A stretch of DNA of 64,000 bases from Rhodobacter sp. 24-YEA-8 (GTDB taxonomy: Bacteria; Pseudomonadota; Alphaproteobacteria; Rhodobacterales; Rhodobacteraceae): the NCBI RefSeq assembly GCF_900105075.1, contig NZ_FNSK01000001.1:248001-312000 (forward strand). The letters are read 5' to 3'. The position numbers and the translations under genes are program-made. The notes under the pieces were generated by a model that saw nothing but the letters and a program-made list of their open reading frames with translations, had not been told where the DNA came from and searched no databases. Below are positions 11,538 through 15,495 of this stretch, piece by piece (position 1 is the stretch's first letter; each line of letters starts with the position of its first letter).

Positions 11538-11551
11538 ATATGGATGTTCGA

Positions 11552-11998
11552 TTATTGAACCTGATCCAGTGCCAGATCCATCCGCTCACGCGCTTTCTTT
11601 GGCAGTTTCACCGCCTTGAGCTTTTCGATCTCGTCCGCCAGATCTGCAGGCGCCGCGCCCACCTGGATCACCATCACCATGCCCATGGCCAGATGCGGCG
11701 TGCATTTGACGCCGTAAATGCCTGGCTCGGTCACCGTCACGTCAAGTTCTTCATTGATTTTGCCTTTGAACACCGCGGCGCCGGGCGGCAACATATCTTT
11801 GATTGCCTCGACATTGTGGCTCTTGTCGGTTGGGATGAACCTGATCACATCGCCCGGTTCGGCGCGCACGTAATCCGGCTCGAAAACCATTGTGCCGGCG
11901 GCGCCTTTGTTCAGCATATGCACCTCGATTTCGGCGGCAAAGCCGGGGGCTGCGAGGCCGCAGGCGATCAGGGCGGCGAAAAGGATGCGGGATGTCAT
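11552..11998 (-). CDS. pseudoazurin (type I blue copper protein)
   Basis: This is a periplasmic electron carrier that donates to nitrite reductase, nitrous-oxide reductase or cytochrome c peroxidase in denitrifying Rhodobacterales. The 148-aa precursor starts with a signal peptide (about residues 1-21, ending GFAA). The four copper ligands are visible: His in SHNVEAI, then Cys, His and Met in [12 protein letters not shown]. The start at 11998 follows AGGAG; the open frame runs 16 codons further without support. An FNR-type box lies 77-90 bp upstream, suggesting induction when oxygen is low. No nitrite reductase gene is in the window, so the partner is inferred. Confidence 0.94.
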
Positions 11999-12074
11999 GG
12001 TGAACTCCTGTGTCACAGAAATGACCGGCAACCGGCCATTCCCCATGCGCTAAGCGGAGTTGTCCTGCCCGACC

Positions 12075-12088
12075 TTGAGCGAGGTCAA
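12075..12088. promoter_or_regulatory. FNR/FnrL-type palindrome between pseudoazurin and dcm
   Basis: TTGAGCGAGGTCAA has both conserved FNR half-sites (TTGA-N6-TCAA). It lies 77 bp upstream of the pseudoazurin start, where a -10-like TAGCGC about 22 bases beyond it would place it near -41. It is 58 bp upstream of the divergent dcm start. Confidence 0.65.
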
Positions 12089-12145
12089 ACCGGACCTGCG
12101 GCGGGGCGTCGCAGTCCCGGTTGCGGCGGGGCGTGTATCGCCATA

Positions 12146-13375
12146 ATGTCAGAAAAATTCCCAGAGATGAAAGCCGCGATGCAAACCGAATTTGACAGGC
12201 TTCTGGCCCAGGCGGGGTGGTCTGTGCCCGATGCCGCGAAACGTCTTGGCTATTCCGAGGGCCATATTTACCGCTGGAAACGTGGCGAAGAAGCCCCGCG
12301 CGAGGCTGTCCTGACGGTATTGCGTGCCGAGGCCGGGCGCCATCCGGACCCTGAAGGCTCTTTCACGTTCATCGACCTCTTCGCCGGAATCGGGGGCCTC
12401 AGGCGTGCCATGGAGGCGGCGGGGGGGCGCTGTATTTTCACCTCGGAATGGGATCAGTTCGCGCAGAAAACCTATCACGCCAATTATCCTGACAACCGCC
12501 CGATTGCCGGCGATATCCGCGAAGTGGCTGAGGCCGATGTGCCCGACCATGATGTGCTGGTTGCGGGCTTTCCCTGCCAGCCGTTCTCTATCGCCGGGGT
12601 CTCGAAGAAAAATGCGCTCGGCCGGGCGCATGGTTTTGCCGATGAAACCCAGGGCACGTTGTTTTTTGACGTGGCGCGGCTGATAAAACACCATCGCCCG
12701 GCCGCGTTCTTGTTGGAAAATGTAAAGAACCTGCAAAGCCATGATAAGGGCAATACCTTTGCTGTCATTCACCGGACACTGACTGAAGAGCTGGGCTACC
12801 AGCTTTTTACCAAAGTGATTGATGCCGGTCATTTCGTGCCGCAACATCGCGAGCGGATCGTGATGGTGGGTTTTCGCGAGACCACCTCTTTCAGCTGGGC
12901 TGACCTTGAGCTGCCCACTTACGGCGGGCGTCGGCTGGGCACGATCCTGCATCCCGAGAACGGCACTGAGGCTCCGGAAGGGCATTTCACCACCGGCCCC
13001 GATGCGGTTGTCAGCGAGAAGTACACGCTGACCGATAAGCTCTGGCGCTATCTTCAGGACTATGCCGCCAAGCATCGCGCAAAGGGCAATGGGTTCGGAT
13101 TTGGCCTTTTCGGGCCGGATGACATCGCCCGCACGCTTTCGGCGCGCTACTACAAGGACGGCTCCGAGATCCTGATCCGCCAGCGGCCCGGTGAAAACCC
13201 GCGCCGCCTGACGCCCAGGGAATGCGCGCGACTGATGGGCTATGGTGAGAATTTCCGCATTCCGGTCTCGGACACCCAGGCCTATCGCCAGTTCGGCAAT
13301 TCGGTGGCGGTCCCGGTCTTTGCCGAGGTCGCGCAGAAAATGCGGCCACATATCCTTTCGCTGATCCATGGCTGA
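12146..13375 (+). CDS. dcm: DNA (cytosine-5-)-methyltransferase, Dcm-like
   Basis: This is a C5-cytosine DNA methyltransferase. Residues about 20-55 look like a small helix-turn-helix ([21 protein letters not shown] split over two helices). Motif I is [10 protein letters not shown] (residue 74 on), the catalytic Cys144 lies in GFPCQPFS, and ENVKNL, QHRERI and the C-terminal [10 protein letters not shown] are all present. The target-recognition part (GNGFGFG, then [15 protein letters not shown] and [14 protein letters not shown]) closely resembles E. coli Dcm as I recall it, so CCWGG is a plausible target. Start ATG 12146 lacks a clear ribosome site, and longer readings run antisense into pseudoazurin. 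vsr overlaps its 3' end by 8 bp. Confidence 0.93.
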
Positions 13376-13880
13376 CGTTCATTCGCCTGATGTGCGGCGG
13401 CGCAATATGCAGGCGATCCGGGGCGCGGATACAAAGCCCGAGAGGGTGTTGCGCAAGGGGCTGCACCGACTCGGGTTCCGCTACCGGTTGCAAAGGGGTG
13501 ACCTGCCCGGGCGGCCCGACCTGGTGCTTGCGAAATACCGGGCGGTGATCTTCGCGCATGGGTGTTTCTGGCACGGCCATGGCTGCGATCTGTTTCGCTG
13601 GCCCAGGACGCGGGAAGAGTTCTGGCGCGGCAAGATCGGCAGCAATATGGCGCGCGACGCCCGCGTCCTGGCCGCGCTTGAGGCACAGGGCTGGCGGGTT
13701 GCCCTGGTCTGGGAATGCGCGCTGAAAGGGCGGGGGCGGCAGCCGGAAGCTGCTGTACTGGCAGAGCTGGCCGCCTGGATAACCGGGGGCGGCCAGCATA
13801 TCGAGATTATGGCTCAGGCGGCGGCCATATCGCCCGCTTTGACCGCATCGGCGAGTCCGTCAAGCAGTTCGACCGTCTGA
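13368..13880 (+). CDS. vsr: very short patch repair endonuclease Vsr
   Basis: This endonuclease nicks 5' of the T in T:G mismatches made when 5-methylcytosine deaminates at Dcm sites. Asp51 in GRPDLVL, His64 and His69 in [11 protein letters not shown], and the later [14 protein letters not shown] match the E. coli enzyme position for position. Thr63, which E. coli uses through its backbone carbonyl, is Ala here. ATG 13368 lies inside the end of dcm, so the two are translationally coupled. The last 20 or so residues form a tail rich in Ala and Ser that is encoded over the convergent 3' end of the DAHP synthase gene (67 bp overlap). No restriction enzyme gene accompanies the pair. Confidence 0.95.
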
Positions 13881-14878: not shown

Positions 14879-14931
14879 TTCGGTCTTCCTGTTCTTTGCC
14901 TCAGGATCTGACCGGTACCCCCGAAAACGGA

Positions 14932-14956
14932 AAGCCGCCGGTCTAACCAGCGGCTT
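14932..14956 (-). terminator. attenuator hairpin upstream of the DAHP synthase
   Basis: On the minus strand the arms AAGCCGCTGGT (14956-14946) and ACCGGCGGCTT (14942-14932) form an 11-bp stem with one G-T pair and a 3-base loop, followed by T-rich sequence. The 5' arm contains CCGCTGG, the exact complement of CCAGCGG inside the leader peptide frame (15013-15007), so an alternative antiterminator pairing is available. Confidence 0.65.
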
Positions 14957-14988
14957 GGGGGTTTTTGGTGAGTATCGCCTGTCTCGCG

Positions 14989-15060
14989 TTACACAGCCGC
15001 CCGCATCCGCTGGCATGAGCGGAAGTAATAAAACCAGACGGGGGCGCAGGACATCGACAT
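14989..15060 (-). CDS. candidate aromatic leader peptide (attenuator) of the DAHP synthase gene
   Basis: This 23-codon frame reads ATG to TAA on the minus strand, 111 bp upstream of the DAHP synthase start. Residues 9-13 are Trp-Phe-Tyr-Tyr-Phe, five aromatic codons in a row, which is the hallmark of a leader peptide whose stalled translation reports shortage of aromatic amino acids. The frame has no Shine-Dalgarno sequence. The best promoter upstream would start transcription at or next to its ATG, making it leaderless as reported for trpL in Sinorhizobium. The region just after the aromatic codons can pair with the 5' arm of the downstream terminator. Confidence 0.7.
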   Translation of the reverse strand: MSMSCAPVWFYYFRSCQRMRAAV

Positions 15061-15067
15061 GTCGGGA

Positions 15068-15096
15068 AAGCTAAGCGCGAAAAATCACTTTGTCAC
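15068..15096 (-). promoter_or_regulatory. possible promoter of the leader peptide and DAHP synthase
   Basis: On the minus strand GTGACA (15096-15091) is followed after 17 bases by TAGCTT (15073-15068). The predicted start of transcription is about 15061-15060, at the leader-peptide ATG. The -10 match is weak. Confidence 0.4.
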
Positions 15097-15183: not shown

Positions 15184-15495
15184 ATGCGAGTGACCCTGAT
15201 CCTGCCCCTTTTTCTTGCCGCCTGTGGTGCCCAGCCTGCGCCGCATATGTTCGGGGCCGAGCGCTTTGACGCCAGCCGTGGCGGGCATGACTATGTGGTC
15301 TTTCTGAAGGGCAGCAGTGTCGAGGTGATCCGTCTCGGCTGGGCCTCACCGGGGGAGCATCAGGCGATTCGGGCCACAATGATCGACCTGATCCCCGAGC
15401 TCACCGGCTGCAAATTGCGCGAAAGCGCTCTTCAGGGCGATTCGGGCGAGATGCGGGGGCTGGTCACTTGCCCCCGTCCGGCCCCTTTGGCCTGA
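15184..15495 (+). CDS. small putative lipoprotein, function unknown
   Basis: A 103-aa protein begins with a short lipoprotein signal peptide (hydrophobic LILPLFLAAC, lipobox LAAC with Cys14), so it should be lipid-anchored and exported. The rest is a small soluble domain with a second and third cysteine (GCKLRES and VTCPRP), which could form a disulphide. I do not recognise a family with a known function. Its 3' end overlaps a convergent small membrane-protein gene by 32 bp. It lies just after the divergent DAHP synthase regulatory region. Confidence 0.7.
   Translation: MRVTLILPLFLAACGAQPAPHMFGAERFDASRGGHDYVVFLKGSSVEVIRLGWASPGEHQAIRATMIDLIPELTGCKLRESALQGDSGEMRGLVTCPRPAPLA

Follow-up and report, generated by a model that had tools for sequence, protein, structure and literature searches.

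In the window, that is, the whole stretch of 64,000 nucleotides from Rhodobacter sp. 24-YEA-8 analysed here, a short open reading frame with the run Trp-Phe-Tyr-Tyr-Phe at residues 9-13 lies directly in front of a gene for DAHP synthase (3-deoxy-7-phosphoheptulonate synthase). This raises the question of whether the gene is regulated through the translation of the aromatic codons that precede it, as proposed in an earlier note on this DNA, which described an aromatic leader-peptide attenuator. According to the present analysis, the region is very probably a ribosome-mediated transcription attenuator of the DAHP synthase gene, because the anatomy of the sequence, its conservation, the covariation of both helices and the conserved promoter position all point to this reading.

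The product of the gene belongs to the type I-alpha DAHP synthases, based on its matches to the NCBIfam profiles NF009395 (PRK12755; 4e-155, above the cut-off) and TIGR00034 aroFGH (2.9e-147; 489.9 bits against a cut-off of 173.2). The frame of the gene remains open through the leader up to an ATG at 15016 (15016-13814, minus strand; 400 codons) and automatic annotation could take this longer form. It was rejected as the start, since the closest homologues align from 14878. The region immediately downstream (11540-13880, plus strand) presumably encodes a DNA cytosine methyltransferase followed by a Vsr-type mismatch endonuclease, as read by eye.

The elements of the leader region are collected in table 1. 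The 23-codon frame with its aromatic run, the 11-pair GC-rich hairpin (14956-14932) with a T-rich follow-on before the gene, and the exact complementarity between CCAGCGG of the leader and the 5′ arm of the hairpin can all be read directly as the earlier note had them, with the T tract being interrupted. The hairpin, together with a tail of at least five T in eight bases, was also recovered by a mechanical search. Among 3000 dinucleotide shuffles of the gene's upstream region in the window, only one contains an aromatic frame of this quality (five aromatics in seven residues) at the position of the leader.

Table 1. Features of the putative attenuator and of the DAHP synthase gene in the window
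Feature	Position	Strand	Basis or remark
-35 element GTGACA	15091..15096	-	read from sequence
-10 element TAGCTT	15068..15073	-	17-base spacer from -35; predicted start 15061/15060
Leader peptide frame, 23 codons, MSMSCAPVWFYYFRSCQRMRAAV	14989..15060	-	read and translated; seven bases after TAGCTT
Control codons TGG TTT TAT TAC TTC (W9-F13)	15022..15036	-	read from sequence
Putative antiterminator strand (segment 2) CCAGCGG	15007..15013	-	exact complement of CCGCTGG 14953-14947
Second possible antiterminator strand GCGGGCGGCTG	14994..15004	-	duplex energy, nascent-RNA folding
Terminator 5′ arm (segment 3) AAGCCGCTGG	14947..14956	-	pairs with segment 2 or segment 4
Terminator 3′ arm (segment 4) CCGGCGGCTT	14932..14941	-	covarying terminator helix
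Interrupted T tract TCCGTTTT	14924..14931	-	read from sequence
Likely Shine-Dalgarno of the DAHP synthase gene, AGGAAG	14890-14885	-	outside terminator hairpin
Type I-alpha DAHP synthase (3-deoxy-7-phosphoheptulonate synthase), 354 aa	13814..14878	-	NCBIfam profile matches

The relatives were gathered from a scan of named genomes, of which the best 80 of 594 confirmed loci were used, and from a genus and a family search, in which the DAHP synthase gene was found in 7 of 13 and 17 of 394 genomes, respectively (the window's genome is counted in both). Under a loose criterion, requiring an 8-60-codon frame that holds three or more aromatics in seven residues and starts 140-260 bases before the gene, a leader frame is present in 102 of the 104 upstream regions (103 loci and the window), including all 23 loci from genomes of the window's family. 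After the removal of L081, which equals the window, and of L045, which is too short, and the merging of identical regions, 99 unique regions remained. Two of them, L073 and L076, contain no aromatic frame within 400 bases upstream, leaving 97 leader-bearing unique loci. Taxonomic groups were assigned from the record titles or, for part of the genomes, from their membership of the window's family, with L072 (titled only Pseudomonadota) placed in the Betaproteobacteria and L021 (titled Mycobacterium) in the Alphaproteobacteria; L027 and L057 are kept in the total of 97 and excluded from the group counts, and the four groups sum to 95. In the record of L021, titled Mycobacterium sp. KBS0706, the DAHP synthase leader is very like that of Inquilinus limosus (L043), and the label or the assembly is doubtful.

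The aromatic frame clearly exceeds its controls. At the loose limit, at least three aromatics in seven residues are found in 97/99 unique upstream regions, against 12/99 reverse strands and 164/990 shuffles. When at least five are demanded, the respective values are 86/99, 0/99 and 6/990. Of 15 plasmid matches, four were inspected. The leader is present on three Paracoccus replicons, one of them plasmid 1 of the laboratory strain P. denitrificans PD1222 (locus on NC_008688.1). For a plasmid copy of the gene in Variovorax (L111), located two genes past an annotated kdsA, the 350 bases upstream of the annotated start contain no aromatic leader.

A CCGCY...GGCGG hairpin with at least six T in the next 12 bases is found in all 102 leader-bearing loci and, among the unique ones, in 97/97 compared with 1 of 4850 shuffles. 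An energy-based terminator search also recovers a hairpin in 102/102, but picks a different hairpin in at least three cases (L061, L063 and L100). Covariation was examined in an alignment (A1) of 42 sequences, 41 of them distinct, from hand-chosen loci of Alphaproteobacteria and Xanthomonadales. The terminator helix is paired in 93.2% of the cells, with exchanges between G-C and A-U and among A-U, G-C and C-G. None of 500 shuffles and no slide reaches its covariation score. Of these two controls, the slides tell more, because related sequences can beat shuffles without any structure. For both the terminator and the antiterminator helix, the numbers of pairs changed on both sides and of pair types lie within the range of the shuffles.

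Similarly, the strand that would compete with the terminator is conserved. A leader strand downstream of the final aromatic codon is fully complementary to the CCGCY core in 90/97 loci (shuffles 24%), and 75 of these 90 strands share one codon phase; segment 2 of the window is in a minor phase, at a distance of 10 bases from the last aromatic codon. The antiterminator helix of A1 is paired in 88.6% of the cells and shows changes on both sides at two of its six pairs. The one is formed by G-C, G-U or A-U, with the window's clade among the A-U rows. The other varies between U-A and C-G, yet is open in 22 of the 41 sequences. Again, the covariation score is reached by 0/500 shuffles and by no slide. 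Within Rhodobacteraceae, one position of segments 2/3 is A-U in the window (CCAGCGG/CCGCTGG), G-U in L086 (CCGGCGG/CCGCTGG) and G-C in L090 (CCGGCGG/CCGCCGG). Flanking pairs beyond the five-pair core are weakly above expectation over the 90 loci (113/270 against 103.4 permuted, sd 5.3). Thus, frame and stems are both conserved in the relatives, and the choice between antiterminator and terminator put forward earlier is supported by comparison.

In the window alone, the best duplex between the leader and the terminator arm is not beyond chance (z -1.7, p 0.06), and the significance of such duplexes at single loci is generally weak (38/102 at p ≤ 0.05, single-base shuffles). Furthermore, the best isolated duplex is not formed by the strand first named: the energy of the strand 15004-14994 is -16.7 and that of CCAGCGG -13.3.

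The putative promoter follows the same pattern. An identical or similar -35 element with the 17-base spacing occurs in nearly all alphaproteobacterial relatives. In a search covering the 45 bases before the ATG, the best promoter match puts the start within -3 to 0 of a leader ATG in 62/62 unique Alphaproteobacteria tested (63 in all), with a null of 12%; the remaining locus, L004, was left out because three codons were required ahead of the cluster, and a separate scan gives it an offset of 0. By the same geometry, the start falls at the leader ATG in 11/11 Xanthomonadales and in 4/21 Betaproteobacteria (null 12%), and in 15 of these 21 Betaproteobacteria the predicted start is 19-30 bases upstream. 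The promoter score of the window on its own is reached by 86 of 2000 shuffles, and a stricter consensus scan of the window passes no promoter. As both the antiterminator and the promoter of the window are weak alone, the support for both comes from conservation. No Shine-Dalgarno sequence is seen before the leader ATG; the best anti-SD duplex (+0.2) is positioned upstream of the second in-frame ATG. The -35/-10 pair and the leaderless start suggested by the earlier note agree with this comparison of promoter geometry, and with the conserved predicted promoter, transcription would begin at the leader ATG and not downstream of 14989. The leader is therefore probably translated as a leaderless mRNA beginning at or one base before the ATG, a reading well supported by the comparison.

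The proposed mechanism starts from this transcript. Upon a shortage of tRNA charged with Trp, Phe or Tyr, the ribosome would stall on codons 9-13 with its footprint ending just upstream of, or barely into, CCAGCGG. This strand would then capture the terminator's 5′ arm ahead of the synthesis of the 3′ arm, and the polymerase would read through. When all three amino acids are plentiful, the ribosome would reach the stop codon and cover the antiterminator strand, and the terminator hairpin would form. The start site, the stalling, the read-through and the amino acids sensed are all predictions from the sequence.

A ribosome covers the message up to 12 bases past the first position of its A-site codon. 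By this geometry, stalling at any codon from W9 to Y12 would keep CCAGCGG accessible, and stalling at F13 would mask two of its bases. In the folding of the nascent RNA, that is, the RNA before the 3′ arm of the terminator is made, segment 3 of the window pairs with the leader at 0.97 (W9), 1.00 (F10, Y11 and Y12) and 0.76 (F13), and at 0.02 with the ribosome at the stop codon and 0.20 without a ribosome. In this folding, segment 3 pairs mainly with CCAGCGG (0.79, 1.00, 1.00, 1.00 and 0.44 from W9 to F13), and to a minor extent with the strand 15004-14994 (0.18, 0, 0, 0 and 0.31). For the 97 loci, stalling at the last aromatic codon gives a mean pairing of 0.78 compared with 0.39 in shuffles, with at least 0.5 in 93/97; the window's pairing at F13 is not beyond that of its own shuffles (p 0.23). 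With the ribosome at the stop codon, the mean falls to 0.008, a near-zero value that is largely due to the masking of the leader. Equilibrium folding with the complete hairpin favours the terminator in most stalled states of most loci and does not separate the stalled from the released states. The terminator is lost (<0.5) upon stalling at the first aromatic codon in only 20/97 loci and is kept in the window (0.93 and 1.00). Since the terminator wins at equilibrium once its 3′ arm is present, antitermination must be kinetic.

Which amino acids would be sensed is indicated by the codons. The cluster contains W, F and Y in all 25 unique leaders of Rhodobacteraceae, in 35/38 of the other Alphaproteobacteria and in 11/11 Xanthomonadales, and this suggests the sensing of all three. 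In Betaproteobacteria, clusters consist mostly of F and Y: all three aromatics occur in 2/21 and W in 3, with 18/21 devoid of Trp. Codon choice is also distinct. Phe codons of the leader clusters are TTT and TTC at 177:46, compared with 51:507 in about the first 340 codons of the downstream genes (the same 95 loci, summed over the four groups). The rare, wobble-read TTT would be expected to make the Phe input more sensitive.

These data bear on a narrower reading, according to which the attenuator is real and senses only a part of the triad (e.g., Phe), with the other aromatic codons slowing the ribosome or remaining by descent. This reading is tenable, though on the doubtful side. It is favoured by the marked shift of the leader Phe codons to TTT, by the lack of Trp in most betaproteobacterial clusters, and by Corynebacterium glutamicum, where AroR holds Phe-Tyr-Phe and transcription, in the passages available, responds to Phe limitation and reportedly not to Tyr availability (PMC11802643). 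On the contrary, the retention of W, F and Y throughout Rhodobacteraceae and Xanthomonadales and in most other Alphaproteobacteria argues for all three inputs, and so does the folding test, in which a stall at any of the window's five codons leaves the antiterminator possible.

An additional function is improbable, namely that the attenuator also releases a stable RNA of ~135 bases, or a peptide, acting on other genes like rnTrpL/peTrpL of Sinorhizobium. The anatomy of a leaderless frame ending in a terminator does resemble that of rnTrpL as far as described (PMC7298713); peptide and RNA are however poorly conserved outside the attenuator elements, and Rfam 15 gives no family at gathering score at the leader, either in the window or in 20 relatives.

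Even less probable is control at the level of translation, where the hairpin or a longer fold would hide the ribosome-binding site of the DAHP synthase gene. The case for it comes from the window's clade, in which the T tract is broken, and from the stretches CCCCC (14961-14957) and GGGGG (14922-14918), which flank the broken tract, can pair around the terminator and give a longer hairpin in some predicted folds. Similar flanks are seen in L084 and L085, and the T tracts of L086 and of the Paracoccus loci are less broken. Termination is favoured instead by the T tracts of the relatives, unbroken in most of them and with a median of 8 T in the 12 bases after GGCGG, and by the Shine-Dalgarno region of the gene (table 1), which lies outside the hairpin. 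Finally, an ordinary small protein or a chance frame with an ordinary terminator is hardly credible, for even if the promoter and the duplex of the window are unremarkable alone, the peptides, compared by eye, vary strongly everywhere except in the aromatic block and in the part encoding the antiterminator strand, the block recurs in most relatives, and the neighbouring frame on the other side of the leader (15184-15495) is divergent, so that an ordinary terminator at this place would serve no transcript, by which a chance terminator of an upstream gene was also rejected.

The attenuator reading thus stands, yet the earlier idea of a single sensor on the entry enzyme is not established, for the leader is not the only point of control at the entry of the pathway. 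The window's genome also encodes a type II DAHP synthase, found in 97/100 genomes of the family, and the upstream regions of this second entry enzyme, of trpE and of the KdsA-like gene of the same genome have no aromatic leader. The leader-bearing type I-alpha isoenzyme, uncommon in the family (17/394 genomes), is therefore an extra DAHP synthase.

The distribution of the leader was followed with a covariance model trained on loci that include seven of the searched family genomes and a near-copy of the window. Strong matches (E ≤ 3.2e-14) were obtained in 9/149 family genomes, a search that is not independent of the training, and in 6/190 class genomes, which may overlap the training loci; few candidates were scored per genome, the window's genome is in both sets, and there is one strong match per genome. 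A gap follows, with the next E values being 5.8e-5 (family) and 1.3e-5 (class). In detail, there are 14 distinct strong places, 13 of which are followed by this type I-alpha DAHP synthase gene, and the fourteenth runs off its contig. All nine family genomes with a strong match are among the 17 carriers of the gene. At loose limits, the model matches in 62/149 family and 24/190 class genomes, all but the strong ones with E >1e-5. The eight weak matches inspected resemble plain terminators with at most three aromatics in seven residues; the window's genome has a second, weak match. In the genomes sampled, gene and attenuator go together, with the exception of the leader-less L073, L076 and L111. 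Near the DAHP synthase locus of Stenotrophomonas rhizophila, a tandem glycine riboswitch is located (L044:4855-5049, minus strand). In Ralstonia solanacearum, two DAHP synthase genes are described, each of which rises 10-20-fold on deletion of the other (PMC6379268, as far as the source was available); this reciprocal rise would fit feedback through such a leader.

Tentatively, and with nearly even prospects of being right, a wider picture may be proposed. The leader would represent a family of attenuators that is widespread in Proteobacteria, is leaderless in its alphaproteobacterial and xanthomonadal versions, and acts as a multi-input OR gate: a shortage of any of Trp, Phe and Tyr would lift the termination of an accessory DAHP synthase. 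Each lineage would have its own set of inputs (W+F+Y in Alphaproteobacteria and Xanthomonadales, F+Y in Betaproteobacteria), the Phe input would be sharpened by the rare TTT, and the device would travel with its gene as a cassette. Classical attenuators read one end product in a terminal branch, and the leader here would read three at the entry of the shikimate pathway, in a family that has no Rfam match and is conserved across Alpha-, Beta- and some Gammaproteobacteria. Its natural division into predicted leaderless versions (Alphaproteobacteria, Xanthomonadales) and apparently led ones (most Betaproteobacteria) makes leaderless translation in attenuation testable. Likewise, the W+F+Y and F+Y versions make multi-amino-acid sensing testable, for instance in P. 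denitrificans PD1222, which is a carrier. The leader could also serve as a control element in strains for aromatic production.

With respect to earlier descriptions, the leader was not recognised for Proteobacteria in the titles, abstracts and passages of the literature covered, and earlier comparative work may include it. The main text of a Bradyrhizobium start-site paper does not mention aroG, DAHP or attenuation, and a Caulobacter paper, in the part available, mentions trpS and ilv leaders. The leader has in common with the trp and pheA attenuators of Escherichia coli the classical stalling and the choice between antiterminator and terminator, but these respond to one amino acid each, are led by a Shine-Dalgarno sequence and control terminal branches. 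The aroR-aroF attenuator of C. glutamicum is reportedly the subject of Neshat et al. 2014. An attenuator of a DAHP synthase gene is hence already known from that species, and what is new here is a widespread and unusually built predicted member.

The trp and pheA attenuators are mentioned, in the passages available, together with aroR-aroF (PMC11802643), for which experimental support is described (PMC11802643, PMC4046766). As in the window, an aromatic leader peptide precedes the DAHP synthase gene of C. glutamicum, where Phe-limited stalling raises transcription. It differs in being actinobacterial and in its Phe-Tyr-Phe run, with no Trp named in the parts available, and Tyr is reported to be without effect. 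The uORFC-13-1 motif upstream of aroF in Acholeplasma and environmental sequences is a candidate attenuator (PMC8632094) that shares the upstream frame and the terminator before a DAHP synthase gene. It differs in having a ribosome-binding site and, as far as described, Phe codons only, and it belongs to unrelated bacteria. In the same source (PMC8632094), uORFC-8-2, the cysS leader of Rhodobacterales, is a candidate ribosome-mediated attenuator from the same order as the window, with cysteine codons and a tRNA synthetase gene instead. A likeness in build to the predicted leaderless start is offered by trpL-trpE of Sinorhizobium meliloti, a leaderless trp attenuator whose transcript begins at the ATG and in which attenuation releases a short RNA, according to the parts available (PMC7298713, PMC10117765). 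Both are alphaproteobacterial and comprise a leaderless leader-peptide frame, here a predicted one, that ends in a terminator; trpL, on the contrary, senses Trp only, controls trpE and is reported to yield a trans-acting RNA and peptide.
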